A stretch of 64,000 bases of DNA from Petrimonas sp. IBARAKI (lineage in GTDB: Bacteria > Bacteroidota > Bacteroidia > Bacteroidales > Dysgonomonadaceae). The notes under the pieces were generated by a model. That model did no database searches, was not told where the DNA came from, and was given only the letters and a program-made list of their open reading frames with translations. The stretch covers positions 2,480,001-2,544,000 of the forward strand of contig AP018040.2 in the NCBI GenBank assembly GCA_002356435.2, read 5' to 3'. Each line of letters starts with the position of its first letter. Within the stretch, counting starts at the first letter, position 1. Positions 33,944-50,992 of the stretch are shown here, one piece after another. Position numbers and translations under genes: made by a program.

Positions 33944-36490
33944 ATGTCAATTATTCGCCTCTCATATCTCAGCTCATGCCTTATCGTCCTTTTGGCGGTT
34001 CTGAGCTCCTGCTACCAGGGGTCGGATTCGAAAAATAATTTCGATGTCAATCGACTTTCACTTCAGGATTCCATTAGCAAAATCAACCTGTCCATCAAAA
34101 AAATAAGAAACGACTCCAACAGCCTCCAGACTACATTGGAGCAGAGCCTGTCTTCAAACGACAAGATCAATCAATTGGTGCTCTACCGAAGCTTGGGAGA
34201 TCTTCACCTTAAAAATTTCCATTTTACAAGCGCTATCAAAAACCACGGGGAGTACCTTAAACTATCGGAAGAACTTGCCGACTCCCTTCAGATAGTAAAA
34301 GCACTGAACGTATTGGCCATCGATTACAGGAAATCCTACCAGATGGATAATGCCATACGGTATTCTTTTCGCGCACGAAAAACGGCCGACAACCTGCAAA
34401 ATTCGGACACCACGGTCCTCAGGGAAAAAGCCCTCTCGCTTAATGGAATTGGCTGGATATATTCCATGCTGGAATATCCTGACGAAGCCCTGAACTCCTT
34501 CAGGCAATCGCATCAATACGCCGAAAGGGCAAACCACACAGAACTGCTAGCCGACGGCTTAATGGGAATCGGCGTTGCATACCGGGATAAAAAGATGTAT
34601 GATTCGGCCAGGGTTTATTTCAATAAATCAGCCGATTTATTTATTGAAATAAATTCCAGGACAGGCCTTGGTTTAACATTTTTCTGCTTTGGACAGCTAA
34701 GTGCGAAGCAGGGCAGTTATCAGGAAGCACTCATTTTCCTGAACAATGCATACAACACATTGAAAGAAACAAGTGACAAATTAAACTGGATGGAGGTATG
34801 TTTTACTCTAGGAAATACATATAAAAAACTTTCCCAATACGCCGAAGCTGAAAAGTACCTTGTGGAAGGACTGGAAATTGCCAAACAGCTGAACCTGCCC
34901 TTTTACCTGAAGAATGCTTACTCCGATTTATCAGAGCTCTACTATTTACAAAACAGGCCGGCACTTGCCCAACAATACCATGTTGTATCGCACAGTTTCG
35001 ACAACCTGATTAACCGAAACGAAACACAAACCATTCTGTTCAATGCTTTTGCCGATTATGAAAAAGCGGAGAGCAAAAAACAACTCACAGGCCTGAAAAC
35101 GGTGTTTGATGCCAAAACGAATCAGCAAAGAATTCTCATTGTCGCCTTTATCGTAATAATTATACTGTTGATCCTCATTTTTCTGATTCACAACCGCTAC
35201 ACAACGATGAAAAAACAGAAAGAGAAATCGTTGGTGGAAATAACAAAATTGAAGTCCGACTTTTACACGAACATTACCCATGAATTTAAAACGCCCATAA
35301 GCATCATTATCGGGCTGGCCGAGAAACTGAAGAAAACGATAGGAGAAAGCAAATCGGCCCACAACCTGATAGACCTGGATATAATTGGAAGGCAATCCGA
35401 GAATCTCTTGTTTCTTGTTAACGAGATACTTACTGTTTCTAAAATTCAAACCCGGAACAGTATTCATTGGGTGAATGGGAACATCGTGAGTCATTTAAGG
35501 TATCTACACAGCTGTTATGTTGATTTTGCCGAGACAAAAAAAATAACCTACCTCTTCCACAGCAGTACGGATGAAATTATCATGGATTACTCCCGTGAAC
35601 AAATCAGGGTGATTGTCAACAACCTGCTGACGAACGCCATCAAGCATTGCACTGCCGGGAACAAGATACTCCTGATGGTAAGGGAAGACAAAAAACAAAA
35701 GAAATGCATTATTGAAGTGGCAGATAACGGCGAAGGCATAACCGCCAAAGACCTACCACACATATTTAAAACTTTCTATCAGGGAGAATCCGACCTGCGG
35801 GAGCAAATGGGGGTAGGAATCGGGCTTGCCTTCACAAAACAGGTCGTGGAAAGCCTGGAAGGAAAAATACAGGTACGCAGCGTACCCTTTAAAGAAACCG
35901 TTTTCACGGTAGAGATTCCTATTATCAACCATCACCGTGCATCGGGGAACCCGTTAGCAGAAGAAACGGTACCTCTGCCGCGTCGTTTCGAATACGACCC
36001 CTTGGAGTTAGAAGAAGAGAAGGAGGACTCCAGCAAGCCGTTGATTCTGATTGCAGAAGATAATCGCGACATGATCTTTTACCTGACTACCGTCCTTCGC
36101 GATGAATTCAATATAGTAGTGGCGCACGACGGCCAGCAAGCGATGGATTTCGCGGAAGAAAAAATTCCCGACCTCATCATTTCCGATTTAATGATGCCCC
36201 TAGTAGATGGCAATAAACTCTGCTCCCACACCAAAAATTCTGTTATGACCAGCCACATTCCTATAATCGTGCTTACAGCCAAAGCTTCTGATGAAGACAG
36301 AATTCAATTAACTAAAGCGGGAGCAGATGCCTATATGACTAAACCGTTCATTGAGGAAGAGCTTAAAGCGAAAATCAACCAACTCTTAAAAAGCAGGAAA
36401 GAATTAAGGGAAAAATACGGCCAGGTTGTTTTAGACAGTCAAAACGCCTCACCTGAACTGACAAACGATTCCAATTTCGAATTTTTGTAA
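33944..36490 (+). pseudogene. Hybrid two-component regulator (HTCS), 5' fragment truncated by IS21 insertion
   Basis: 848 codons remain. A signal-like hydrophobic start (LLAVLSSC) is followed by TPR-like helical repeats (about 55-390), one TM segment (about 396-418), and HisKA with ITHEFKTP (His near 446). Next are HATPase (N-box NLLTNAIKH near 560, VADNGEGI) and a receiver (LILIAEDNRDM near 700, phospho-Asp in ISDLMMP near 747, TKPF). In an intact HTCS an AraC-type HTH would follow. Here the frame meets a stop five bases into the IS element (…EFL-stop). The matching HTH lies beyond the element at 39105-39424. Restoring the frame gives 953 residues. The fragment could still make a kinase-receiver protein without DNA binding. 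Confidence 0.9.
36480..36485 (+). repeat. Left target-site duplication of the IS21-family element
   Basis: AATTTT, repeated immediately after the right end of the element at 39099-39104. A 6-bp duplication is within the range for IS21. Confidence 0.85.
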
Positions 36491-36504
36491 ACAGGAATCA
36501 AAAA

Positions 36505-36579
36505 TACAGTGAAAATGGGAATCCGACTACAGTAAAAACGGGAACAATTATACAGTGAAAATGGGAACAAAAGTACAGT
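36505..36579 (+). repeat. Left-end transposase-site array (period 23 bp)
   Basis: Four TACAGT units begin at 36505, 36528, 36551 and 36574, exactly 23 bp apart. The first three continue as (G/A)AAAA(T/C)GGGAA and the fourth is partial. Confidence 0.8.
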
Positions 36580-36613
36580 AATAAGTTGTATTAATTTTAT
36601 TAACCAGCGTATC

Positions 36614-38236
36614 TTGGCAGTCAAAACTAAAAAGGTTACAGCCATGGACGCAAAAAAGAAAGGACTTATTATTATGTATCACCAGATTCATTCACTTCGC
36701 AAAAACGAGGGCTTTTCCATTCAGCGGATTGCCGATTATCTTCAGATTAATTTCCGCACAGCAAGGAAGCTGCTCACCATGAGCGAGGAAGAGTTCGACA
36801 ATTTTATGGATAAGAAGTTTTCCAAACCCTGTCTGTTAGACCCTTATAAAGAATTTATCATTCGTTACCTGAAACAGTTTGAAGATGCTCCTGCATCCGT
36901 AGTTCACGATCGTATAAAAGAGCATTTTCCCTTGTTTCCAACTGTTGACCCCAAAACCGTGTACAATTACGTAATGCATCTGCGCAGGCAGCTGAACATC
37001 CCAAAGGTTACAGCCAGTGAGCGTCAATACTCGCCGGTACCTGATCTTGCACCGGGCGAACAGGCGCAGGTCGATTTTGGAGAGAAGAAGTTACGTACAA
37101 GTAATGGTGAATGGGTGAAAGTATATTTTTTCATTATGTTGCTTTGTTATAGCCGGCAAAAGTTTGTACTGTTTCGTGATTCTGCGTTTACATCCGATAG
37201 TGCCGCAATGGCACACGAACTGGCTTTCTCCTACTTTAAAGGGATCCCTCAGGAGATTGTTTATGATCAGGACAGCGTATTTTTGCATCGTGAGAATCTG
37301 GGTGATTATGTAATGACGGAAACCTTCAATAGCTACCAGTCCTCCCGTCCCTTCCGGGTTGTGTTCTGTCGTGCGGCAGATCCCCAGAGTAAAGGTAAAG
37401 TCGAGAATACGGTAAGGTATGTAAAGAATAATTTTTTGTTCCATCGCACCTTTGTTGACGTTAATCACCTGAATACCGAGGTTCTGAACTGGCTGGAGCG
37501 TACCGGCAATGCAATGGTACATAACACTACCAGACGGATTCCCCGGGAGCTATGGACAAGGGAACAACCCTACCTTATGACATGGTATCCGTTATTTCCA
37601 CAGACAAGAGAAGAAGGCCACCGGGTTTTAAAGACCAATACGGTTAAATATCGTGGCAACAGCTATTCCGTACCCTTTGGAACCTACAGGAACGATGAAA
37701 CCCGTGTACATCTCAAGGAAGATGGTTCCCTGTTAATCATCTCGGACCAAGGCGGACAAACCATTGCCAGGCATCAGGTGCCAGCCGGGGTTGGAAACAA
37801 TGTCATCAACAGCAATCATCGCCGGGACACATCTATCAAGCTGGACCAGTTACGTTCCAGGGTAAAGGACTTTTTTATGCACAGTTCGGCCATTCTTTGT
37901 TTTGTAGATCGTATTGATCAACGTTATCCCCGTTATGTGCGGGATCAACTCTGCACCTTGTTGGCATTGGCTGAAAGTTATGGAGCCGCAGCATCCGAAA
38001 AAGCCCTGGACTTTTGTGTTCGCAACGAATTGTTTAGTGCCAATGATTTCAAATCTCTGTTAGAAAGTACCAATAAAGTAAAAAAGACACCTGAAAAGGC
38101 CACCTTTAAACCACTTGGAGGGACGCAAACTCAACTACTGGCAAACATGGAGCCTGACAAGTCAAGGATCAGCGAATATGAATTAATCTTTAACCAGAAC
38201 ATCAGCAGCCATGAGCCAGTACATACCACAAATTAA
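36614..38236 (+). CDS. istA: IS21-family transposase IstA
   Basis: 540 residues (an internal ATG at 36644 is an alternative start). An N-terminal HTH (FSIQRIADYLQINFRTARKLL) precedes an rve/DDE integrase core. The acidic residues are seen in QAQVDFGEK, IVYDQDSVF and SKGKVENTVRYVKNNF. It catalyses strand transfer. It overlaps istB by 26 nt, the usual arrangement. Confidence 0.93.
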   Translation: MAVKTKKVTAMDAKKKGLIIMYHQIHSLRKNEGFSIQRIADYLQINFRTARKLLTMSEEEFDNFMDKKFSKPCLLDPYKEFIIRYLKQFEDAPASVVHDRIKEHFPLFPTVDPKTVYNYVMHLRRQLNIPKVTASERQYSPVPDLAPGEQAQVDFGEKKLRTSNGEWVKVYFFIMLLCYSRQKFVLFRDSAFTSDSAAMAHELAFSYFKGIPQEIVYDQDSVFLHRENLGDYVMTETFNSYQSSRPFRVVFCRAADPQSKGKVENTVRYVKNNFLFHRTFVDVNHLNTEVLNWLERTGNAMVHNTTRRIPRELWTREQPYLMTWYPLFPQTREEGHRVLKTNTVKYRGNSYSVPFGTYRNDETRVHLKEDGSLLIISDQGGQTIARHQVPAGVGNNVINSNHRRDTSIKLDQLRSRVKDFFMHSSAILCFVDRIDQRYPRYVRDQLCTLLALAESYGAAASEKALDFCVRNELFSANDFKSLLESTNKVKKTPEKATFKPLGGTQTQLLANMEPDKSRISEYELIFNQNISSHEPVHTTN

Positions 38237-38972
38237 GAAGCATGCCACACGTCTGCGCCTGTCGGGTATCGGTAGTAATATCACCAACTTGCTACTTGAG
38301 GCACAGAACGACGCCCCCAGCTACGACGAGTTTGTGTTCAAGCTGTTTTCCCACGAAGTCAAGGAGCGCGAAGCCAAACAGCAGCTGCTACGAATGAAAT
38401 TAGCCAGACTGCCCGTCAACCACGATCTGGAACAGTACGACCACTCTTTTACCAGTGGCCTGAATCCCACTCAGCTCAATCAGTTGCGTGAATTGAACTG
38501 GTTGGATCAATGTTACAACATCATGCTAACCGGACCTTCGGGAACAGGAAAGACCTATATCTCGGCGGGCTTGGGCTTTGATGCCGTACAGCGTGGTTAC
38601 AAGGCATATTTTAGAAATATCAGTGATATTCTGTCAACCTTACGCTTAAAGGATGTATCTCAAAATGCAGCCAAAGAGTTCAAACGATTAGCGGAGGCCC
38701 AGTTGATCATTATTGATGACGTGATGACACTTCCGGTAAACCGCGAAGATGGTAACCGGTTCTTTGTATTTATCAATCAGGTATATGAAACCACCTCGTT
38801 TATTATCACAACCAACAAATCACCCGCCGAGTGGGCCAGATCGCTTGATGATGAAACTCTGGCTACCGCATTATTAGACCGTTTCCTGTATAAATGTCAA
38901 CTAATACAACTAAAAGGAAAAAGCTATCGTATGCAAAACAGAAAAACAATTTTTGAAAATGAAAAAAACTAA
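38211..38972 (+). CDS. istB: IS21-family helper ATPase IstB
   Basis: 253 residues, AAA+ of the DnaC/IstB type, with Walker A LTGPSGTGKTYISAGLG (near 105), Walker B LIIIDDVMTLP (near 168) and the sensor region FIITTNKSPAEW. It selects targets and activates IstA. The length is typical. Confidence 0.94.
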   Translation: MSQYIPQIKKHATRLRLSGIGSNITNLLLEAQNDAPSYDEFVFKLFSHEVKEREAKQQLLRMKLARLPVNHDLEQYDHSFTSGLNPTQLNQLRELNWLDQCYNIMLTGPSGTGKTYISAGLGFDAVQRGYKAYFRNISDILSTLRLKDVSQNAAKEFKRLAEAQLIIIDDVMTLPVNREDGNRFFVFINQVYETTSFIITTNKSPAEWARSLDDETLATALLDRFLYKCQLIQLKGKSYRMQNRKTIFENEKN

Positions 38973-39002
38973 CGAAAATATCTTTATTTTTGCTCAGAAT
39001 TT

Positions 39003-39079
39003 ACTGTATTCCTGTTCCCGAAAATACTGTAGGTAATGTTCCCAAAAACACTGTACAGGATTTTCCCATTTTCACTGTA
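39003..39079 (-). repeat. Right-end transposase-site array
   Basis: Mirror-image TACAGT units (plus-strand ACTGTA) at 39003-39008, 39026-39031, 39050-39055 and 39074-39079, spaced 23-24 bp. Each of the outer three is linked to GGGAA, matching the left array. Confidence 0.8.
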
Positions 39080-39098
39080 TTTTTAATTCCTGTTTACA

Positions 39099-39424
39099 AA
39101 TTTTTGCAAAAGGTTACCGATGTTATTTACCGGGAGATGAAAAATATCGATTATTTTCCACAGGGACTGGCCTCAGAAATGTGTGTGAGTCCTTCTCAGC
39201 TTAATCGGAAAATCAAATCCATATCGGGATTGAATGCCACAAATTACATCCTGAAGGTACGGCTGAACCGTGCCAAAAAACTGCTGACTACTTCCCAGAA
39301 ACCTATCGGAGAAATTGCGATGGACTGTGGGTTCAATGATTTTGCCTATTTCTCAAGAACATTTAAAAAGGAATTTGGAATCACCCCTTCCAAATATCAG
39401 CGCATGCCCCACCTATCAAATTAA
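39099..39424 (+). pseudogene. 3' fragment of the split HTCS: AraC-type DNA-binding domain
   Basis: Starts with the right AATTTT duplication and continues QKVTDVIYREM...SEMCVSPSQLNRKIKSISG...IGEIAMDCGFNDFAYFSRTFKKEFGITPSKYQ, a complete AraC-type two-HTH domain of HTCS proteins. It is in the same frame as the upstream fragment when the element and one duplication are removed. An ORF from 38990 runs into it from the IS end, but no promoter for it was seen. Confidence 0.9.
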
Positions 39425-39884: not shown

Positions 39885-39918
39885 GAGCGAACTGTCGTGT
39901 GGGACAGTTCGCTCTTTT
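39885..39918. terminator. Bidirectional-looking hairpin at convergent junction
   Basis: A 12-bp perfect stem (39885-39896 with 39903-39914) with a 6-nt loop, followed on the plus strand by TTTT. It abuts the stop of the minus-strand AraC-like gene. Confidence 0.65.
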
Positions 39919-40708: not shown

Positions 40709-43087
40709 TTATTGTTGTAATAGTAAACTACTGTCTGTTTTCAATTGAGTTATAGTTTTTATTTGCTCATAATTGGTGCTATTTCTTCGATATCTAAATG
40801 TGACTGATTGTGAATTATTTGTCGATGCGGTTACCGTGTAACGGTAATTCCCTGTTGATGTCATTTCGATACTACCGGGGCCTGAACTGATGCTTACAGT
40901 GCCATCGGAAGGGACATCGCGCCAACTACTACTCCGGTAGTGTTTTATCGTTCCTTCAAATATTAAGTCTGTCAATACCATCAGAATGGTTCCGTCATTT
41001 CTTAAATTACCAATAGTGGTAGTGACGCTATATTTTTCTTTGTAGTTGCTGTTTACCTGTTTTTCGTAAGTGAATGTCACGGAAGTATTGTTGTTGTAAG
41101 AAGCCGGCGGTGTATAAATGAATGAGCCCGTTGAATTTACCTGAATACTTCCCGTTGACGCAACTATTCCTACACCGGAATGCATGGGTGTTCCCGGGAG
41201 AACAGAACCATTTCCACCATAGGTGATTGAGCCTAGAAACCCTAATATCGTCACACTATTCAGATGGATATTGGTTGAGTTGTTGGGAGTGAATGTGCTA
41301 CTATACCTACTATATGTGAAGCCTTCCGTTATTTCAAAACTCACCGTTTGAGATTGGCCTGCCGATGTTGAACTAATCGCCCAAATATATTTGCCATCTT
41401 CATTCGTAGGCATGTAGAGGGTGCCGGAAGTCACGGACAGGTTGTTTCGCAGTGCGTAAGGTACCGGTTTGGAAGAGCTGCCGTAGGTTAAGTTCCCTGT
41501 CCTGTATATTAAATTATATCCTACCATTCCATCAGTAAAATAATCGGCTTTTAATATAACACTTTCTGCATTCCCCGATAGATTGGTCTTGAAGTGGATC
41601 GTTTGTTCTCCTTTTTGCTCTGCCCGGTAGATGTAATGGATCTGACGGTCACCTTCCACAACCATTTCCAACCCGCTTGCCGCCGGATAGAGCCCATTCG
41701 CATGAATTTGTATCGGGAGTGGAAAAAGGTCTTCAGGAAAGTCATCAGGAATGGTAAAACGTAAGGAGACATTGCTGCTTTGAGCATTCCCAACTGTTCC
41801 GGGATTCGCGTTATTGATCGTTATCGGATCAAACTGGAAAGGAGTCCTAAACACCACGCGGATGGTACGTGCCAATTCGCCTTTCGATACCCTGATCAGG
41901 GCTACTCCCGGTTCTTGGGGAAATGCTCCAAGACTTACCCCGGAAATAATTCCTGTTGTTGGATTGAAGTTAAGGGAAGCGGCATTAATCGCGGAGTTTC
42001 CGGTTTGTAAGGAGACCGTTACTCCCGTGTTATTCACTTCATCGCTGCTGATATCGGGAAAATACTTTGCCCATACTTGAAAGGTCTGGTTGGGTTGAGT
42101 GAGTATTACCAACGTTTTTTCCACCTCCAGCTTGCTGTTCCCGTCGGAGATCATGGGATATTTCTCGATCACCGGATCAAGGGCTGTGTTGTTGTGCGAG
42201 GCACCTGCCAGAGCATCGTTAAAACTGCTGAATCCTGCCCTTGTGACCGATTGAATTTTTACTACATAATGGTAGTTTCTTTCGATGTTATAACGGTTTT
42301 TATTGTTATCAATTAAATCGATCTTATAGTAGTAGGATTCTCCTTCGTACGTACCCCGTACAATTACCGTGGTGATATTGGATGCCGATGCATTTTTACG
42401 TTCAAACAAGTACTTTTCTCCTGTTGAGATTCCGGACAACAAGGCAGGAAGTAACGTCACCCCCGATGGTTCGCTAACTGTTCCTTCAAGAAATCCCGTA
42501 GCTGCGCTATAGGGAGCTATGGTTCCCTGTTGGGGTGCGTTGTGAATAACAAAGCCGTTATAGGTGAAATTGGAAGCTTCGTTGATCACACTTATTTTGG
42601 CCTGGTTGCGAAGTAGCTGTACTGTTATCCCGTTGAAACTTGTAGCGGATATTCCGCTGTTCAACTCAACCCGTGACCAGAATGTGGTGCTTGTCGTGCT
42701 CAGTAGCGCGACCACTGTAGCTTCGTTCACCCCAGGAGAATCGTTGAACGCTTCTTCTCCGAGGTTTGAAATAAAATGTACAATGCGCCGTTTGCTGCTC
42801 GACGGTAGGGAAGCCGTAAAAGTTCCGCCTGTCTCCGATTGATTGGTGAGAGAGGCTTTCTTTCTCACGATAAAACTGCCGTTCTCGTCAAAGACCAACA
42901 GGTACATATCGTTCACACCGCCGGTTGCTCTGGTATTTACTGTTTTAAAATCCGGGATAGAGGCCGAGAAAGACACTGTAACATCGATTCCTTCATTCAA
43001 TTGCTGTTCGGATTTCCATACACCCTCATCTACGCAGCCTGAGAGAGCTATCAACAAACCGAATAGACTGTATATTATCTTTTTCAT
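40709..43087 (-). CDS. Fimbrial tip/accessory lipoprotein, DUF4906-like, with C-terminal repeats
   Basis: 792 residues. Lipoprotein signal LLIALSGC (Cys 18). The Mfa/fimbrillin-like N-terminal domain (VSFSASIPDFKTVNTRATGGVNDMYLLVFDENG) carries a Thr-Arg site at residue 53. The middle is beta-rich with a BACON-like stretch (TFQVWAKYFPD...). The last ~230 residues contain three related modules with the pattern TG.(F/Y).Y......N..SVTF.Y. As the last gene of the operon and the largest subunit it is the best candidate for the tip adhesin (FimE/Mfa5-like position). Ligand unknown. Confidence 0.75.
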   Translation of the reverse strand: MKKIIYSLFGLLIALSGCVDEGVWKSEQQLNEGIDVTVSFSASIPDFKTVNTRATGGVNDMYLLVFDENGSFIVRKKASLTNQSETGGTFTASLPSSSKRRIVHFISNLGEEAFNDSPGVNEATVVALLSTTSTTFWSRVELNSGISATSFNGITVQLLRNQAKISVINEASNFTYNGFVIHNAPQQGTIAPYSAATGFLEGTVSEPSGVTLLPALLSGISTGEKYLFERKNASASNITTVIVRGTYEGESYYYKIDLIDNNKNRYNIERNYHYVVKIQSVTRAGFSSFNDALAGASHNNTALDPVIEKYPMISDGNSKLEVEKTLVILTQPNQTFQVWAKYFPDISSDEVNNTGVTVSLQTGNSAINAASLNFNPTTGIISGVSLGAFPQEPGVALIRVSKGELARTIRVVFRTPFQFDPITINNANPGTVGNAQSSNVSLRFTIPDDFPEDLFPLPIQIHANGLYPAASGLEMVVEGDRQIHYIYRAEQKGEQTIHFKTNLSGNAESVILKADYFTDGMVGYNLIYRTGNLTYGSSSKPVPYALRNNLSVTSGTLYMPTNEDGKYIWAISSTSAGQSQTVSFEITEGFTYSRYSSTFTPNNSTNIHLNSVTILGFLGSITYGGNGSVLPGTPMHSGVGIVASTGSIQVNSTGSFIYTPPASYNNNTSVTFTYEKQVNSNYKEKYSVTTTIGNLRNDGTILMVLTDLIFEGTIKHYRSSSWRDVPSDGTVSISSGPGSIEMTSTGNYRYTVTASTNNSQSVTFRYRRNSTNYEQIKTITQLKTDSSLLLQQ

Positions 43088-43108
43088 ATCTTTTGGTCTA
43101 TAGTTTAA

Positions 43109-45106
43109 TTAATCTTTAATATCACGGATACAACGTACATGAGCGCTGCTGTAAGTGGCCCCTGAATTCCAGTTGTAAGTGTCGTCTGTTCTTACAAAAG
43201 GCAGGTTTTCTCGCATCCGGTAAGCACCATAGTAGCCCGATTGCCCATTGGCATTTTTTGTCGGATACTGGCTCCAGTTACTCCAGTAATAGGGGCCTCT
43301 CATCACATATTTGGTAGGAGCTGTTTGCTGAAGAACATCGATATAATAAATCTCAGCTGCTGTGGGAAGGCGCCAGCCTGTTTTTGTAGTGCCATCTTCT
43401 GAAGTTTCGCTATACCCTCTACATTGAGTTTGCGCATCGGAATAAGATTTTGGAACGCTCGCTCCAAACTGTGATGCCATTTCAAATTTAGGAGAGACCA
43501 TTTTTGAAACCTCTTCACTGTTGATGGTTTGTCCTTGGCTGTCAACAGGTGGAAAACCCCATATGATATCGCCTTTAGGAGCCAATGTTGTAATGGCATA
43601 CATATACGGATTATTATTGCCGGACGGTAATGAATAGCGGGTACCTTCACCGGGCATATAGGAACGGACTCCTTTTGTAACTGAAAAATAGGTTGCCGGT
43701 AACTGTCGTATTTTTACCGTTTCCGTCAGCTGTCCGTTGGTAACTTGAAATTCGATATCTTTCGGAATGTAATTTTCCGGGATGGCGCTGGTGATGATGA
43801 TCGTACCGGAAGCCACACCTGACTGTACCTGTACCGATGGCACTTGGCCTCCAGTAACGTTTTCTGTGACCGGTGACGATGCCCCGGCCGGTACATAGGT
43901 GTAAGTTGCTTTTAACGAATTGGGCACGAGCATGACGTTGGCTACAGATGAGTTAAAGTTGAGGGTGTATGAACTTATATTTGGCATCACCACGTTGCGT
44001 TCTGACACTACCAGGTAGTGTGAACCCGTGATGGTTACCAGTATTTCCTGGGTGCTCCAATCCTTGATGGTATAGTTGCCCTGAATATCCACCGGAGGTT
44101 CATCCCTGCTTCCCAATATCTTTACTGTCACACCAATATCATACAGGAAATTGCGCTGAACCTTGTTCATGTATTGCTGATCATCACCGGTCAGTCCATA
44201 CGGAGTCACGGGGACACGATACTTGTAATAGCCTATATCATTGCCTGTATTTTCCTTTAACGGAATAAGGAGTTCGAGATAGGTTTCCTTGGTGAAATCG
44301 GAGCTCCAGTCGTTGGCATAGGTGTAGAAAGGAGCTGCTGTGGTGTTGATGTTGCCAGAAAGAGTTTTTGTTAATTCCTTGTATCCGGTATCTTTCCAGT
44401 CAGCACTGCCCGGAACAAATGTTGTGCCGTCATCCATCAATACCGACCGGTCGGTGAAGTGCACCAGTCTCGCCAGTGCCGTTCCTTCCTGAACATATCC
44501 CGGAACGTTCACTTCGATTAGCTGGAGCCGTATCTTTGAAGCTGCCCTTTTCAGGTGGACCATCCCCAAGTCGGGAGTGTTCAGGTTCACTATTTGTGAA
44601 ATCATTCCATCCATGACGAAAGAGGATTGAGCAACAGCTCCCCCATCGGACACGAAACTTGCTGTCTGGAAAACCAGGTCCTTCAACGTTTGCAAGTTAT
44701 TCTCTTCTTCAGTGATAGAACTTAGGTCGGCAGTATTGTTCGCCACTACATAGACGTCGTAGGTAGTTGTGGTGTTGTTCTCGAACAAAGCCCGTTTAGT
44801 TGCTACGACCGGAATGGTTGTCTTCTGTGTTCCGGCGTCATACGAAAGGTTGTTCACACGCCATTTGAGGGTAGTTCCCTGATAAAAAAAGATGTCGAGT
44901 CTGTCGATTTTCTTCTCGTTATAACTCCCGTCGTTATCGCTCTCTTCCGTAGTTAGGGCACGGGTAGAAATATCACCCATCGACAAACTAAGTGTAAGGT
45001 GGCCGTCTTCGGCGGGAAATTTTTCTGTCACCTCAGATGTGCAGGCGGTCGCCATAATCAGCATAACCGCAATCAGTGAAACAAAAGGGTATATTCTTTT
45101 CTTCAT
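43109..45106 (-). CDS. Fimbrial accessory/tip lipoprotein with lectin-like C-terminus
   Basis: 665 residues. Signal with Cys near 22 (MATAC). The fimbrillin-type N-terminal domain has the processing-like site STRALTTEE (Arg 49). A BACON-like beta segment (HYLVVSERNVVMPNISSYTLNFNSS...) follows in the middle. The C-terminal ~180 residues (GWRLPTAAEIYYIDVLQQ..., YYWSNWSQYP, YSSAHVRCIRDI) resemble a C-type-lectin/FGE-like fold used in Bacteroidales surface proteins. Gene spacing to neighbours is 16-21 nt. It corresponds in position to FimD/Mfa4-type subunits. Confidence 0.78.
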   Translation of the reverse strand: MKKRIYPFVSLIAVMLIMATACTSEVTEKFPAEDGHLTLSLSMGDISTRALTTEESDNDGSYNEKKIDRLDIFFYQGTTLKWRVNNLSYDAGTQKTTIPVVATKRALFENNTTTTYDVYVVANNTADLSSITEEENNLQTLKDLVFQTASFVSDGGAVAQSSFVMDGMISQIVNLNTPDLGMVHLKRAASKIRLQLIEVNVPGYVQEGTALARLVHFTDRSVLMDDGTTFVPGSADWKDTGYKELTKTLSGNINTTAAPFYTYANDWSSDFTKETYLELLIPLKENTGNDIGYYKYRVPVTPYGLTGDDQQYMNKVQRNFLYDIGVTVKILGSRDEPPVDIQGNYTIKDWSTQEILVTITGSHYLVVSERNVVMPNISSYTLNFNSSVANVMLVPNSLKATYTYVPAGASSPVTENVTGGQVPSVQVQSGVASGTIIITSAIPENYIPKDIEFQVTNGQLTETVKIRQLPATYFSVTKGVRSYMPGEGTRYSLPSGNNNPYMYAITTLAPKGDIIWGFPPVDSQGQTINSEEVSKMVSPKFEMASQFGASVPKSYSDAQTQCRGYSETSEDGTTKTGWRLPTAAEIYYIDVLQQTAPTKYVMRGPYYWSNWSQYPTKNANGQSGYYGAYRMRENLPFVRTDDTYNWNSGATYSSAHVRCIRDIKD

Positions 45107-45122
45107 AATTCATTCTCCATTT

Positions 45123-46505
45123 TTACGGGTTTGCGGATTGTTTGATTAATACCCTGTTACCGGGGCCTACCAAAGGACTACCGCTGAGCAGCGGTATCTC
45201 CGATGAGTTTCCACCGTACAGCACATTAATATAGAACTCTGTCGTGCGTTCTTCTGCACCCGGAAAGTTTGTTGCCTTTACGGTTAGGGTCACCTCGTCG
45301 TTTCTACCTCCCTGGTATAGTCCTTCGAATTCAAAATCAGTGGGATTGGTGAGATTCGCTACCCATGTGGCGTCGATCGGGTTGGTCAGTTTAAACGTAA
45401 AGCTGATTTTTCCATTCTCGTTTACACTATACGTGAAATTATTGGATGTAGGTTTGGGGAATAGTGTGAACGTCCTATCAAACAATAAGCTTGACGGTAA
45501 ATAATTCCAGGGAAGCACACGGGAGAAAATTGTCAGCCCATCGAATTCGCCGATATTTTTAACGGTACCGATGAGTTGGTACGCATGATTTCTTTTCAGG
45601 GAGTAGAGGTGGTCACCGGGGGTGGTGACCGACGAGGAGGGGTCGCCCGCGTTAATCACGGAAGAAACGTTCTCGTTGAGATAAACCCGGTATTTTGTGG
45701 GTACGTTATTGTACAAGGCTTCCACTTCCAGTTGCGTGGCGAGTGACTTAACACCGCCTGTAAGGTTCTCGTATACGTAAATGTTCTCGTATCCGCTGAT
45801 GGCAGTAGCAGTAGTGCTCAAATCGATGGCAGTGGGCAAGGCATGCGTCCAATTCCAGTAGGTCTGATCAGAAATGCTTGCACCTCCTGCCCAGATGGCA
45901 GTTTTTTCTGTATTGTTCAACAGGCTCACCCTAGTAATTTTCACTTCGGCATCCGTATCTTTTTTCAAGGTCAGGCTTATTTTTGCCGCTACCCGTGTAA
46001 GGGTGACGGAAGTATTGTTTCTTAAGGGATCCTCTATGTTGGCAACCGACACACCCACAGATTTTCCAGTCATCAAAAGTGGAAGTGTCAGCGGTGCGCT
46101 GATCTGATCGCCAAGTATTTCCATGAGTCCGGCTTTGGTGGTGATGGATTCCAACACAGGAGTCAGTGCATTACTCTCATTGGCCACTACATAAACCTCT
46201 TTGTTGCCCGTGGCTACTTCCAACACGAAAGGATTAATAAAATCACTGTTTCCGGATGCATAAAACTTGTTTTTCTCAACGTATTCACCTGCGAATACAA
46301 AGACACGCACCTTATCGATAGCTTGATCGCCGGTAAAGAGGGGATCGCCAGCTGCACGAGTTGTCACTCCATCAAGTGACACGACTATAACACCCGGTTC
46401 TTCGTTGACCGTCAGATCGTCGGAGAGGCATGATGTCAATAAGGCCATAAGTACTGTTATAGCGACAATTGCCTTTAAGCTGAATGGATATGCTGTTTTT
46501 TTCAT
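45123..46505 (-). CDS. Fimbrillin-family accessory subunit
   Basis: 460 residues. Lipoprotein signal ends MALLTSC (Cys 26). The N-terminal domain contains SLDGVTTRAAGDP with Arg 50, then the familiar fimbrillin pattern IDKVRVFVFAGEY, NKEVYVVANES, VTLTRVAAKISLTL and YSLKRNHAYQLIGTVKNIG. It belongs to the FimA/Mfa1-like superfamily and sits after the anchor gene, as FimC/Mfa3-type subunits do. The extended C-terminal beta region (residues 340-450) may supply the donor strand. Confidence 0.8.
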   Translation of the reverse strand: MKKTAYPFSLKAIVAITVLMALLTSCLSDDLTVNEEPGVIVVSLDGVTTRAAGDPLFTGDQAIDKVRVFVFAGEYVEKNKFYASGNSDFINPFVLEVATGNKEVYVVANESNALTPVLESITTKAGLMEILGDQISAPLTLPLLMTGKSVGVSVANIEDPLRNNTSVTLTRVAAKISLTLKKDTDAEVKITRVSLLNNTEKTAIWAGGASISDQTYWNWTHALPTAIDLSTTATAISGYENIYVYENLTGGVKSLATQLEVEALYNNVPTKYRVYLNENVSSVINAGDPSSSVTTPGDHLYSLKRNHAYQLIGTVKNIGEFDGLTIFSRVLPWNYLPSSLLFDRTFTLFPKPTSNNFTYSVNENGKISFTFKLTNPIDATWVANLTNPTDFEFEGLYQGGRNDEVTLTVKATNFPGAEERTTEFYINVLYGGNSSEIPLLSGSPLVGPGNRVLIKQSANP

Positions 46506-46515
46506 TGTCTCGAAT

Positions 46516-47442
46516 TTATAGATATTCTACGTACTGGAAGACCTGATTCCAAGGAGTGACATTGACATTGATGCTTAATGTTGCCTTGAAATCGATAAGG
46601 ATGTTCAGTGTCCGGCCTACCTCCGCATTGAACGGTTTCCCCTTGCTGTCCCTGTCGGCCGTGAAGATTACCTCCCCATTATAAAGAATGTCCACCACTA
46701 TCGATTTTCCAAATGCAGCAGGAAAAATATAGAAAATGGGCGCCACGAAGTTGCCGTTTTTGTTAAATGTTGCCGGCGGCGAGTAAAAAGAACGAGTTCC
46801 TGTCAGGTTGCCGTTCATGTCATAGGTATCGAGCGATTCGCGCACTGAATAGGAGTAGGAGCCTTCCCCGTTGCCGTTCCATTGCTTCAAGTTTAGGGAG
46901 GTAATGGTTACTCCTGCGGTTTTTCGGGTGATTTCCAACACATGCGATGTGCCGGATGTTGTTCCTCCATACTCTACCGGTACGCTGATGGTTCCGTAGA
47001 AAAGATCACTGGGCGAATACGCCATGCGTTGATCTGTTTGTTCGGAATCCGCTGATCTCAGCCTCACGTAGAGGTCTTTCAGTTCTTTTACGTCGCTTAT
47101 ATTCGAATAGTCGACGTTTTCATCCAGGTTGCCCCAAGCGACAAACTTGAGTAAAGAGTGGCCGGGATAATCCATCACAATCTGCAATGCCTTACGCTGT
47201 TTCACCTCGCTGGCGGAGAGATAGAAGCTCTTGAATATCTTTTCCTCCTCGTCGAACACAAACATAATTACTTGCTCCACATCTCCCGATTCAGTGATGT
47301 CATTTCCGTCGGCATCCACTACCTTAACAGTTATCTGGAACGGGCGTGGACATACCGACAAGTCTTCTTTCAGGCAACTGCTCAGCATTACTGTCAGCAA
47401 TACTGCTACAAGTATAAAGCTGTATTTGTTCGTGCTATTCAT
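46516..47442 (-). CDS. FimB/Mfa2-family fimbrial anchor protein
   Basis: 308 residues from ATG 47442 (an upstream ATG at 47478 would add 12 polar residues before the signal). The lipoprotein signal MNSTNKYSFILVAVLLTVMLSSC precedes LKEDLSVCPRPFQITVKVVD, a typical Mfa2/FimB start with a second cysteine. The body has two transthyretin-like domains (MFVFDEEEKIF, KFVAWGNLDENVDY, LEITRKTAGVTITS, FPAAFGKSIVVDILYNG). Unlike the other subunits it has no Thr-Arg cleavage site near residues 45-55, in keeping with its role as uncleaved cell-proximal anchor that sets fimbria length. Confidence 0.85.
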   Translation of the reverse strand: MNSTNKYSFILVAVLLTVMLSSCLKEDLSVCPRPFQITVKVVDADGNDITESGDVEQVIMFVFDEEEKIFKSFYLSASEVKQRKALQIVMDYPGHSLLKFVAWGNLDENVDYSNISDVKELKDLYVRLRSADSEQTDQRMAYSPSDLFYGTISVPVEYGGTTSGTSHVLEITRKTAGVTITSLNLKQWNGNGEGSYSYSVRESLDTYDMNGNLTGTRSFYSPPATFNKNGNFVAPIFYIFPAAFGKSIVVDILYNGEVIFTADRDSKGKPFNAEVGRTLNILIDFKATLSINVNVTPWNQVFQYVEYL

Positions 47443-47537
47443 CTTTTGTTGTTTTATAGTTTCTTCTTGTTCCCGCAACAGGTATCACTCCTGCCGCGGG
47501 TATGTTTTGCGGGCACAGTGTGGTTACTGTGGATAGT

Positions 47538-48737
47538 TTACCAGATTACGCCTTGTCCAACAACTTTCCAGTCCTCTACTGCCACTGCTACGTCCAGCCA
47601 TGCTTTGTCAACCGGATCGATATTGGGATTACCCAATCCTTTGATGGTAAGGGAAATGTTGTATTGGGTATTGCGCTTGATCGTTCCGTCAGCCACATAA
47701 CCTTGGTCGTAAGAATATCCTTTGTCTGCAGCGTTTATCCAAATGGGATAATAAGTGTACCCTTCGTTATCGGTATACAACTCTTTCACGGTTTCAACAA
47801 CAGCATTATTTTTGTATACTTTTGCACGCAGCACGATAAACATCTTGTCGGTTCCATTGCTTTCGTTTACATAGTAATAGGGAGCATTGGTAACAACCAC
47901 CGGAAGTGCGCCGGTTACAGCGTCAGTCAAAGAGGCTGTGGCGACTGCAGAAGCATCGGCAGATCCCACATAAGTGCTTAGCGGTGAAGTCCATTTTGCA
48001 CCAAACAGATAGTTCTCGTTCTTAGCCAAATCGCTGCCAAACAGTTTTGTTTCTTTCGGGACGTTAAACATGGCCACTTCCACATCTTTCAAAGCATCGA
48101 ATACCACTTTCTGGTTAGCTGGTACACTTGCCAGATCCAACACAGCACTAACAATTGCTACGCGGGCATTGACACGGGTGATTGGAAGAGGTTTTTTGTT
48201 ATCGTTCAAATGGTTTTTATTTTCGCCGGTTTTAGCAGCTACTTCTGCATCCGTATAACCGTAATAGTTATTGCCTTTTACAAGAGTTACATCAAACGGT
48301 TCTGCCGTCATGACCAATCCTTTTCCAGCAACATCAGCCGGCAACCCCTTGATTGTCGCAAGAAGTTCTGCTTTCGAGTTCTTTTGTCCAATCTCTGCAT
48401 TGGCCACAACCACCACTGTGCGGGCTCCGATGCGGGCTTCAATTTCAGTTACTTCAGCTGCGGCAGCACTCTTATAGGCGTCTAATACATCGCCTTTGAA
48501 GATCCATACCTCCAAGGATTTGATCGCGCTCTCTTGAGCCAATCCTTTTGCCAGAACACCGTCACCGTTCAAATTGCCGGTAGAACGTAGTAAAGAGCCG
48601 TTGCTGGAAGGTAATACCTTGATCGAGATGGTAGCTTCCTTTTCACCGGACAGTTCCGGTACGTCGTCGTTGTTACATCCTGTAAGCCCTAATCCCAAGG
48701 CTACAATTCCTGCTAAAAATAATTTTCCGATTTTCAT
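47538..48737 (-). CDS. Major fimbrillin (FimA/Mfa1-like shaft subunit)
   Basis: 399 residues. Lipoprotein signal LALGL-type ending LGLTGC (Cys 21). Cleavage-like Arg at 51 (GSLLRSTGNLN). Fimbrillin core IKSLEVWIFKGDVLDAYKS, TVVVVANAEIGQ, PITRVNARVAIVSAVLD. The last residues (WLDVAVAVEDWKVVGQGVIW) match the C-terminal strand of shaft fimbrillins that completes the neighbouring subunit. Base composition is richer in GCT/GTT-type Ala/Val codons than the neighbours, suggesting high expression. It is followed by anchor and accessory genes, as in Porphyromonas and Bacteroides clusters. Confidence 0.85.
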   Translation of the reverse strand: MKIGKLFLAGIVALGLGLTGCNNDDVPELSGEKEATISIKVLPSSNGSLLRSTGNLNGDGVLAKGLAQESAIKSLEVWIFKGDVLDAYKSAAAAEVTEIEARIGARTVVVVANAEIGQKNSKAELLATIKGLPADVAGKGLVMTAEPFDVTLVKGNNYYGYTDAEVAAKTGENKNHLNDNKKPLPITRVNARVAIVSAVLDLASVPANQKVVFDALKDVEVAMFNVPKETKLFGSDLAKNENYLFGAKWTSPLSTYVGSADASAVATASLTDAVTGALPVVVTNAPYYYVNESNGTDKMFIVLRAKVYKNNAVVETVKELYTDNEGYTYYPIWINAADKGYSYDQGYVADGTIKRNTQYNISLTIKGLGNPNIDPVDKAWLDVAVAVEDWKVVGQGVIW

Positions 48738-48839
48738 AAGTTGATAATTTAAAAAGTGAATAATTTAGTTTAATTTGATCTGTTTAATACGTTTGTTTAC
48801 TTTTAATGTTTATTCTTAAGACTCTCATCTTCAAGCTCT

Positions 48840-50318
48840 CTACAAGTTATCTTCTATATATTGTTGGAGTTGTTTTGCGTTGTACTCTGCATCGGCATTG
48901 CCTGCCTGAATAGCTCTGTTGAAGTATTGTTTGGCTCGGGCAGTATCTCTTTTTTGGGCATATGCGACCCCCATCAGATTCATTGCTGCAGGGCTCTCGT
49001 TATACTGCTCCAGATAGGCCAAGGCTGCGTCGGGCCTGTTTGCACGTAACTCACCTACAGCAGCGTTTAAGCAGGCAACTTCGGCATCGGGAAAAGTTCG
49101 ACAGGCAATATCAAATACTTCCCTGTATTGCGGGCTATCTGCTGGATAGGTATTTGCCACCAGATACATCTCATTGATACTTAACATCTTAGGTTTTGTT
49201 TTAATAAGTTCTTTGGCTTCCTCAACGTTAAACGTACGTGAAACGAACGTCACCTCATAATCGTTGCGGCGAAGCGGTGGAAAATACTCCCTGAGCATGA
49301 GCCTGTAGGTTGAACCGCCGTTCAACTCCATGAGTCGTTTTTCGCGGCCCTCGTTTATACCTACGTTGTCGATAATGTCAAGGACAGCTTCTTTATCGGT
49401 CAAAGAGGAACCTTCAACAGCTTTCCGTAATCCTTCCCAGTCTTCGCCGAACCACTGTACGTTAAACCGGTCCCGTGCATAGCCGTATTTCTTCTCCATA
49501 TAACGGGCAAACGTTTCAGCACGGCGTTGAGAGAGGAGCATATTGCGCTCGTACGTGTCTTCAGGGGAAGCATAGCCGGAGATAGTGAAATTAGTAATGG
49601 AGAGATCAGAATCGGCTTTCAGTGCATGAACTACACTGTCTACTCTGGCCAGTTGCTCAGCATTGTTCTGGAAGTCCGGGAGTAAATCGTAACGTCCCAC
49701 GATGTAGTTGAGGTGTGCGCTGAATATTTCGCTTCGCACTTTTACTTCTTCCACTTCGGGTACGATATACGACATGCGGAAGTCGGGAATGAACTTGTCG
49801 GCCAGGATCCTCTGCGAAACCAATTTATCGGGTTGCATGTCCGAGCAATCGGCACAACCCACTACTTCCGTTCTCAGTAGCAACCGTGCATTTCGTTGCC
49901 AGTCCGAATATGGCAGGGTGGCGGTATAATGCATCGACTGGGCCGTACCGTTCCGGCGCACCAATTGTTTTTCCACCGGCATGGAAAGGTGTGTTTTCCC
50001 ATTCCACTCAAACGGCCTTTGGAGCACTTTATTCCGTAGTGTCCCTTTCACGGCTATAGATTCTAATTCTACTTCATTTTGATTGGAGACTATTACAGGT
50101 GTGATAATCAGCATATCATTTTTGTTGAGCCTCAAGTTGTCGAGGTTCATATCCATGGTCACGCTTGTTACGCCCCCTTTCTTAGATATAGCCTGGTTTT
50201 CAATAACTATCTGATCCGTGTAGTTGACTTGAGCCGTTACTACCTCATGGCTTACGAACAAGGCAGTCATCGTGACAAGCAATCTGTATATACTTTTCCG
50301 TTTCATACGTACTTCCAT
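48840..50318 (-). CDS. DUF3868 protein with OmpA-like and TPR regions
   Basis: 492 residues (a second ATG at 50306 gives a cleaner signal peptide, MKRKSIYRLLVTMTALFVSHEVVTAQ). The N-terminal DUF3868 beta domain (residues about 30-180) contains a CADC pair. An OmpA-like peptidoglycan-binding segment follows (SGYASPEDTYERNMLLSQRRAETFARYM), then TPR-like C-terminal helices (AMNLMGVAYAQKRDTARAKQYFNRA). Such genes precede fimbrillin genes in many Bacteroidales and probably help anchor or assemble the fimbria in the envelope (inference). It is 4 nt after the DUF3575 gene. Confidence 0.85.
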   Translation of the reverse strand: MEVRMKRKSIYRLLVTMTALFVSHEVVTAQVNYTDQIVIENQAISKKGGVTSVTMDMNLDNLRLNKNDMLIITPVIVSNQNEVELESIAVKGTLRNKVLQRPFEWNGKTHLSMPVEKQLVRRNGTAQSMHYTATLPYSDWQRNARLLLRTEVVGCADCSDMQPDKLVSQRILADKFIPDFRMSYIVPEVEEVKVRSEIFSAHLNYIVGRYDLLPDFQNNAEQLARVDSVVHALKADSDLSITNFTISGYASPEDTYERNMLLSQRRAETFARYMEKKYGYARDRFNVQWFGEDWEGLRKAVEGSSLTDKEAVLDIIDNVGINEGREKRLMELNGGSTYRLMLREYFPPLRRNDYEVTFVSRTFNVEEAKELIKTKPKMLSINEMYLVANTYPADSPQYREVFDIACRTFPDAEVACLNAAVGELRANRPDAALAYLEQYNESPAAMNLMGVAYAQKRDTARAKQYFNRAIQAGNADAEYNAKQLQQYIEDNL

Positions 50319-50322
50319 TTTT

Positions 50323-50901
50323 TTATTTGATAAGATAAATAAGGGATATTGCCGCTTTAGTTACACCCAAATAGTTTTGGGTATCGCTGGATATTTTGCT
50401 TCCGCACTTCACACAGGTAAACTTGTCGTACGTCAGGTAAGCATAGCCTGCGCCGATGCTGAGCTCAAAATTCCACCTGGGTGAGATTAACCACTGATGC
50501 CCGTAACTGATGCCAGCTCCGTAAGCAAAACCTTCGTAGCGGAATTCGTTTAAATTGGATAAACGACCTACTGGAATATCTATTCCGCCGATGTTGTATT
50601 CGCCTGCCAATGCATGCAATCCGAAAAAATGGCCATTGAAACTTTCGCAAAGCCAATACCTCAGCTCAGGCTGAACAATCCAGTGTTTTGCTTTTTTGTT
50701 GTCGTTAAATACAAAAGGGTTGAATCCTCCTCCTACTTCGAGTGTGTACTTACGATTAAGGGCAAATTCTAAACCAACATTTGGTGTACCTGCTGCCGCC
50801 CAATGAGCGAAATTGGTTTTGACTCCAACAGTCTGGGCATGTAATTGATACGTTCCCAGTATCAATACTATAATCAGAATTAATTTATTATGCTTGAGCA
50901 T
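50323..50901 (-). CDS. DUF3575 outer-membrane barrel-like protein
   Basis: 192 residues from ATG 50901, the start that gives a normal signal peptide (MLKHNKLILIIVLILGTYQLHAQ). An ATG at 50976 would add 25 residues. TVGVKTNFAHWAAAGTPNVGLEFAL and the regular beta strands, ending in SLIYLIK, fit DUF3575, a small predicted outer-membrane barrel found upstream of DUF3868 and fimbrillin genes. A CVKC pair is present near residue 165. First gene of the fimbrial operon. Confidence 0.85.
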   Translation of the reverse strand: MLKHNKLILIIVLILGTYQLHAQTVGVKTNFAHWAAAGTPNVGLEFALNRKYTLEVGGGFNPFVFNDNKKAKHWIVQPELRYWLCESFNGHFFGLHALAGEYNIGGIDIPVGRLSNLNEFRYEGFAYGAGISYGHQWLISPRWNFELSIGAGYAYLTYDKFTCVKCGSKISSDTQNYLGVTKAAISLIYLIK

Positions 50902-50992
50902 TTTATTTGTAATATTGGGTTTGTAAATGTGTGAAACTGCAAAAAACAGACACAAAGTTGTATTTTTCGGACTCATAAATGACTGATAAATC

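Follow-up and report, generated by a model that had tools for sequence, protein, structure and literature searches.

A hybrid two-component regulator gene of Petrimonas sp. IBARAKI carries an IS21-family element between its receiver and DNA-binding parts, which raises the questions of how old the interruption is and what it does to the genes that the regulator normally controls. The window analyzed here, a stretch of 64,000 nucleotides (positions 2,480,001 to 2,544,000 of contig AP018040.2), lies in a single-contig genome of 3,693,233 bases that is 99.99% complete. Disruption of regulators by insertion sequences is common, and the event itself is an ordinary IS21 insertion. The added value of this case is an unusually clean intact allele in the same species together with a plausible fimbrial target. 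A title-level literature search returned no paper title on this locus or on an IS in this regulator. We consider it highly probable that a recent insertion of the element in the linker of the hybrid regulator leaves a kinase-receiver protein without its DNA-binding part, so that a fimbrial operon would lose its signal.

Table 1. Features of the interrupted regulator locus (positions in the window).
Feature	Position	Strand	Remarks
Regulator 5' part, 848 aa	33944..36490	+	TPR_12, HisKA, HATPase_c, Response_reg; stop from IS
Target-site duplication AATTTT, left copy	36480..36485	.	sequence
IS21-family element	36486..39098	+	2,613 bp; terminal inverted repeats 36 bp, 35/36 matching
istA, IS21 transposase, 540 aa from TTG	36614..38236	+	NF033546; rve domain
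istB, helper ATPase, 253 aa	38211..38972	+	NF038214; PF01695
Target-site duplication AATTTT, right copy	39099..39104	.	sequence
Regulator 3' part, AraC-type HTH (HTH_18)	39105..39424	+	open frame extends left to 38963 within the IS
Small AraC-type HTH protein, 166 aa	39918..40418	-	domain match
Mfa/Fim-type fimbrial gene cluster, predicted target	40709..50976	-	read as one operon

Structure of the insertion site

An earlier sequence-only reading had described a regulator split by an IS21 element. The element boundaries that it gave, 36486-39098, are correct, as is AATTTT on both sides, identical in the assembly. It had placed the start of the element in a TTG codon, and this could be made more precise: the first base of the IS is the second T of this leucine codon. 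Codon 848 of the left open reading frame consists of T(36485) and TG from the element, and the TAA that follows is also supplied by the element. Removal of the element and one duplication gives 848 + 105 = 953 aa, so the frame is restored as that reading had proposed.

The kinase, receiver and AraC HTH that it had recognized are all found by Pfam in the two halves. The left half contains TPR_12, HisKA (residues 437-503), HATPase_c (552-660) and Response_reg (701-811), with the motifs THEF at 445, ISDLMMP at 746 and MTKPF at 798. By eye, it also shows two hydrophobic regions, one signal-like at the N-terminus and one TM-like near residue 400. The element cuts the linker between receiver and HTH. 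HisKA, HATPase, receiver and AraC HTH, separated by the IS in the window, lie in one open frame in four of the five genus relatives with an orthologue, as expected for a hybrid two-component system.

Identity and copies of the element

The IS21 assignment of the sequence-only reading holds for both genes, since istA scored 183.6 bits against NCBIfam NF033546 (cut-off 160) and istB 235 bits against NF038214 (cut-off 200). An alternative istA start is the ATG at 36644. IS21 elements have terminal inverted repeats ending in TG...CA and produce a short target duplication. Here the ends are TG...CA, the 36-bp repeats contain one mismatch, and duplications of 5-6 bp were present at all five full copies examined in the own genome, G009 and G002. 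The element shares with the family an rve-domain istA, an IstB ATPase, overlap of the two genes, and an end motif that is repeated further inside; no difference sets it apart as a kind.

A search for further copies in the genome, suggested by the same reading, returned three full copies, 100% identical over 2,613 bp, and a fourth place reduced to 115 bp from the right end. The duplications of the three full copies are AATTTT, CAGGAG and CAAGG, each exactly at the element ends. Among the ten genus genomes searched (own included), three contain a full element. The single copies in G009 (five differences, duplication AAATG) and G002 (two differences, duplication TAAAT) are at sites elsewhere than the regulator. 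Since the three identical copies, and also those in G009 and G002, each have their own duplication, AATTTT cannot be taken for a chance 6-mer. The presence of identical copies at several sites agrees with transposition of the element. Outside the genus, scoring of two candidates per genome in 101 family genomes gave no near-identical copy, only pieces with 63-93% identity. Carriage on plasmids was considered as well, and no megablast match was found among 72,556 plasmid records.

Two of the other places in the own genome can be described further. The identical copy at G000:C1:992267-994879, with duplication CAAGG, splits a gene of the phage-integrase (tyrosine recombinase) type. The 115-bp right-end remnant is followed on its inner side by 224 bp of non-IS sequence, and this combination is 99.4% common to G000:C1:2409658-2409997 and G006:C125 (1-339). 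The similarity runs to the contig end in G006 and stops exactly at the IS terminus, with different outer flanks; a second IS end was not found in the 20-kb stretch examined near the G000 remnant. By this comparison, remnant and inner sequence may together form a unit that has an IS end on one side and occurs at different sites.

Empty sites and age of the insertion

Regulator orthologues in the genus share 95% (G009), 92% (G006), 82% (G002), 70% (G001) and 54% (G004) identity with the window protein. No match was found at E 1e-30 in G003, G007 and G008, and the best match in G005 (33%), regarded as a paralogue, did not enter the empty-site comparison. When the window flanks were joined (121 bp), they aligned without gaps to the empty site in all five orthologues, over 121/121 bp in G009, G002, G001 and G006 and over 119/121 bp in G004. 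Identity was 100% with G006, 90% with G009, 87% with G004 (119 bp), 80% with G002 and 78% with G001. A split shared by all relatives, which the sequence-only reading had named as evidence against a recent event, is thus excluded.

That reading had also proposed to look for an uninterrupted allele in relatives. Such an allele is present in G009, which belongs to the same species as the window genome and encodes an uninterrupted regulator of 955 aa. Together with the orthologues of G001 (954 aa), G002 (954 aa) and G004 (974 aa), all read from their own DNA, four of the five orthologues read through. The proposed recent date of the insertion, known from one sequenced strain, is supported by the intact allele in the same species, the five empty sites and the three identical IS copies.

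The fifth orthologue, in G006, has lost 23 bp of the receiver sequence, and the resulting frameshift terminates the protein at 791 aa. As read from this metagenome assembly, the deletion is independent of the IS insertion in the window. Counting the own genome, four of the six genus orthologues are intact and two are broken.

Substitution rates against G009 were low at nonsynonymous sites in both halves. For the kinase half, dN was 0.0125 and dS 0.164 after codon 60, and 0.0255 and 0.192 with the first 60 codons included; for the HTH half, dN was 0.012 and dS 0.291. From these values both halves of the regulator look constrained, and most of the divergence from G009 may predate the insertion. 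The divergence is unevenly distributed, as the gene start (33944-34240) and the surroundings of the receiver (35890-36340) are less similar to G009 than the nearly identical middle. Mismatches counted per 150 bases suggest a mosaic gene.

Relation to known regulators

The intact relatives have kinase, receiver and AraC HTH fused in a single polypeptide, an arrangement shared with the hybrid two-component systems of Bacteroidota. The well-known sugar-sensing members of that group carry a propeller sensor, whereas the regulator in the window has a TPR sensor and adjoins fimbrial genes.

These two features are shared with FimS-FimR of Porphyromonas gingivalis, in which a TPR sensor with kinase is encoded near a Fim/Mfa-type fimbrial operon. 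The FimS model NF053520, an equivalog, aligns over residues 48-658, covering TPR and kinase, with 93.7 bits against a cut-off of 600. On this score the window regulator appears to resemble FimS without belonging to it, and a FimS-like mode of working is the most that we would propose. In P. gingivalis, FimS has a periplasmic TPR sensor, and disruption of either fimS or fimR gives afimbriate cells (PMC11053733). FimR is there a separate regulator, whereas kinase, receiver and AraC-type HTH are fused in the window family (PMC11053733).

The fimbrial neighborhood

The cluster next to the regulator encodes DUF3575, OmpA/DUF3868, a FimA-like pilin, an Mfa2 anchor, a second FimA-like subunit, a FimD tip adhesin and a large accessory protein. 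The tip adhesin scored 543.6 bits against NF052322 (cut-off 170). Cluster and regulator are convergently oriented in the window genome (G000), G009 and G006; the G006 cluster was found by tblastn, and the contig ends inside it. A few kb beyond the G002 regulator there are relatives of DUF3575 and OmpA (43 and 30% identity). Comparison of 40709-48737 with G009 showed that four fimbrial subunit or tip genes are highly divergent (42, 43, 62 and 43% identity), with 99.6% identity for the Mfa2 anchor, 99.4% for OmpA/DUF3868 and 98.6% for DUF3575. This divergence of surface subunits within the species looks like allelic replacement. A second FimA/Mfa2 cluster lies outside the window, at G000:C1:2448623-2453456.

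Matches to the kinase half at E <= 1e-90 define a regulator family of 43 members in 29 of the 101 family genomes. Nine members (G000, G009, G001, G087, G100, G052, G067:C78, G072:C19 and G071:C203) have FimA (PF06321) or Mfa2 (PF08842) on their own contig at a distance of no more than 10 kb. The fimbrial density of the genomes themselves predicts 0.34 such cases, a value that treats related genomes as independent. With many contigs being short, nine is a floor. The link in G001 is a weak one, consisting of one weak fimbrillin-like gene beside the orthologue with no FimA hit. In G087, G100, G052 and G072, the regulator is followed in each case by DUF3575, OmpA/DUF3868, pilin and Mfa2 genes in the same direction; these four were picked because they are linked and add no evidence for the linkage itself. 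A small AraC gene, similar to that at 39918 in the window, closes the fimbrial run in G087 and G052.

For the other 34 members, many of them on short contigs, neither of these domains lies within 10 kb. A distance of at least about 175 kb separates fimbrial genes from the members in G051 (a genome of two contigs) and G053 (one contig) and from the second members in G000, G009 (two), G001 and G052, and the wider family as a whole is therefore not fimbrial. Because of the enrichment beside FimA/Mfa2 genes, the adjacent operon is the likely uncoupled regulon, and gene neighborhood suggests that the regulator normally controls it. On the other hand, the regulator could have another target, given the 34 of 43 unlinked members and the G001 orthologue. 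The convergent orientation in G000, G009 and G006 also counts against the fimbrial reading.

Six members that looked short were inspected for breaks between receiver and HTH, and none was counted as such. Four of them (G083, G071:C203, G067:C78 and G068:C312) are truncated by contig ends, the G013 member stays in frame but is about 180 residues shorter in the TPR region, and the G059 member matches only from residue 402.

Consequences of the split

In the most probable course of events, the IS21 element, with both genes open, entered the linker and produced a 6-bp target duplication. Since then, the strain would have made no more than a kinase-receiver protein, open to phosphorylation but lacking a DNA-binding part. 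Because the protein from the left half has no output domain, the fimbrial operon would stop answering the signal. Going by what the loss of FimS or FimR does in P. gingivalis, expression of this operon is most likely reduced. The sequence-only reading had called the regulon uncoupled, which may mean silent or unregulated, because the HTH may still be translated.

Translation of the HTH would allow a different outcome, in which transcription of istAB continues into the 3' fragment and gives an HTH-only protein acting without receiver control. This protein could have 95 aa, from the in-frame ATG at 39137 upstream of the complete HTH_18, or be fused to IS sequence from TTG 38990, as the frame is open from 38963 across the IS end to 39424. 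Moreover, istA, istB and the 3' fragment all have the same direction. A hairpin terminator at the right end of the IS was looked for and not found, since the scan of 38900-39424 gave no terminator-like site on the plus strand and the fold of 38960-39140 does not stand out (z -1.33). Against such rewiring, inspection by eye showed no convincing ribosome site for TTG 38990, and the same 38900-39424 region has no sigma-70-like site on the plus strand in a scan for promoter types other than those of Bacteroidota. Isolated AraC HTH domains, furthermore, often bind weakly. We regard rewiring as improbable, with silence the likelier state of the operon and a free HTH from istAB read-through the less likely one. 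A phase switch working through precise excision of the element was considered as well and set aside.

The break may also matter little, if neither the habitat nor growth in culture requires the gene and it is decaying through drift or selection for loss. The independent frameshifting deletion in G006, which brings the broken genus orthologues to two, speaks for this, but it was read from a metagenome assembly, the low dN/dS indicates constraint, mostly before the break, and the majority of the orthologues are intact. Dispensability is thus a possibility that we hold to be rather unlikely, though less so than rewiring. The chance that the split is an assembly artefact or is old and fixed is negligible: in a single-contig genome of this completeness, the duplications are exact and different for each copy, an intact allele exists in the same species and all five sites compared are empty, and both explanations were rejected.

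With the loss of signal to the fimbrial operon as the preferred reading, a wider and doubtful proposal is that Fim/Mfa fimbriae in some of the Dysgonomonadaceae are governed by a fused, single-protein counterpart of FimS-FimR, which has been inactivated more than once in Petrimonas, so that losing or rewiring it would switch fimbriation. The proposal would include the IS described here, the 23-bp deletion in G006, and the severed HTH as a possible third cistron of istAB. The split allele and its intact counterpart in the same species, beside a fimbrial operon, form a natural pair for testing the targets of a TPR-type hybrid regulator, and the pair would also allow testing whether the DNA-binding domain works without the receiver.
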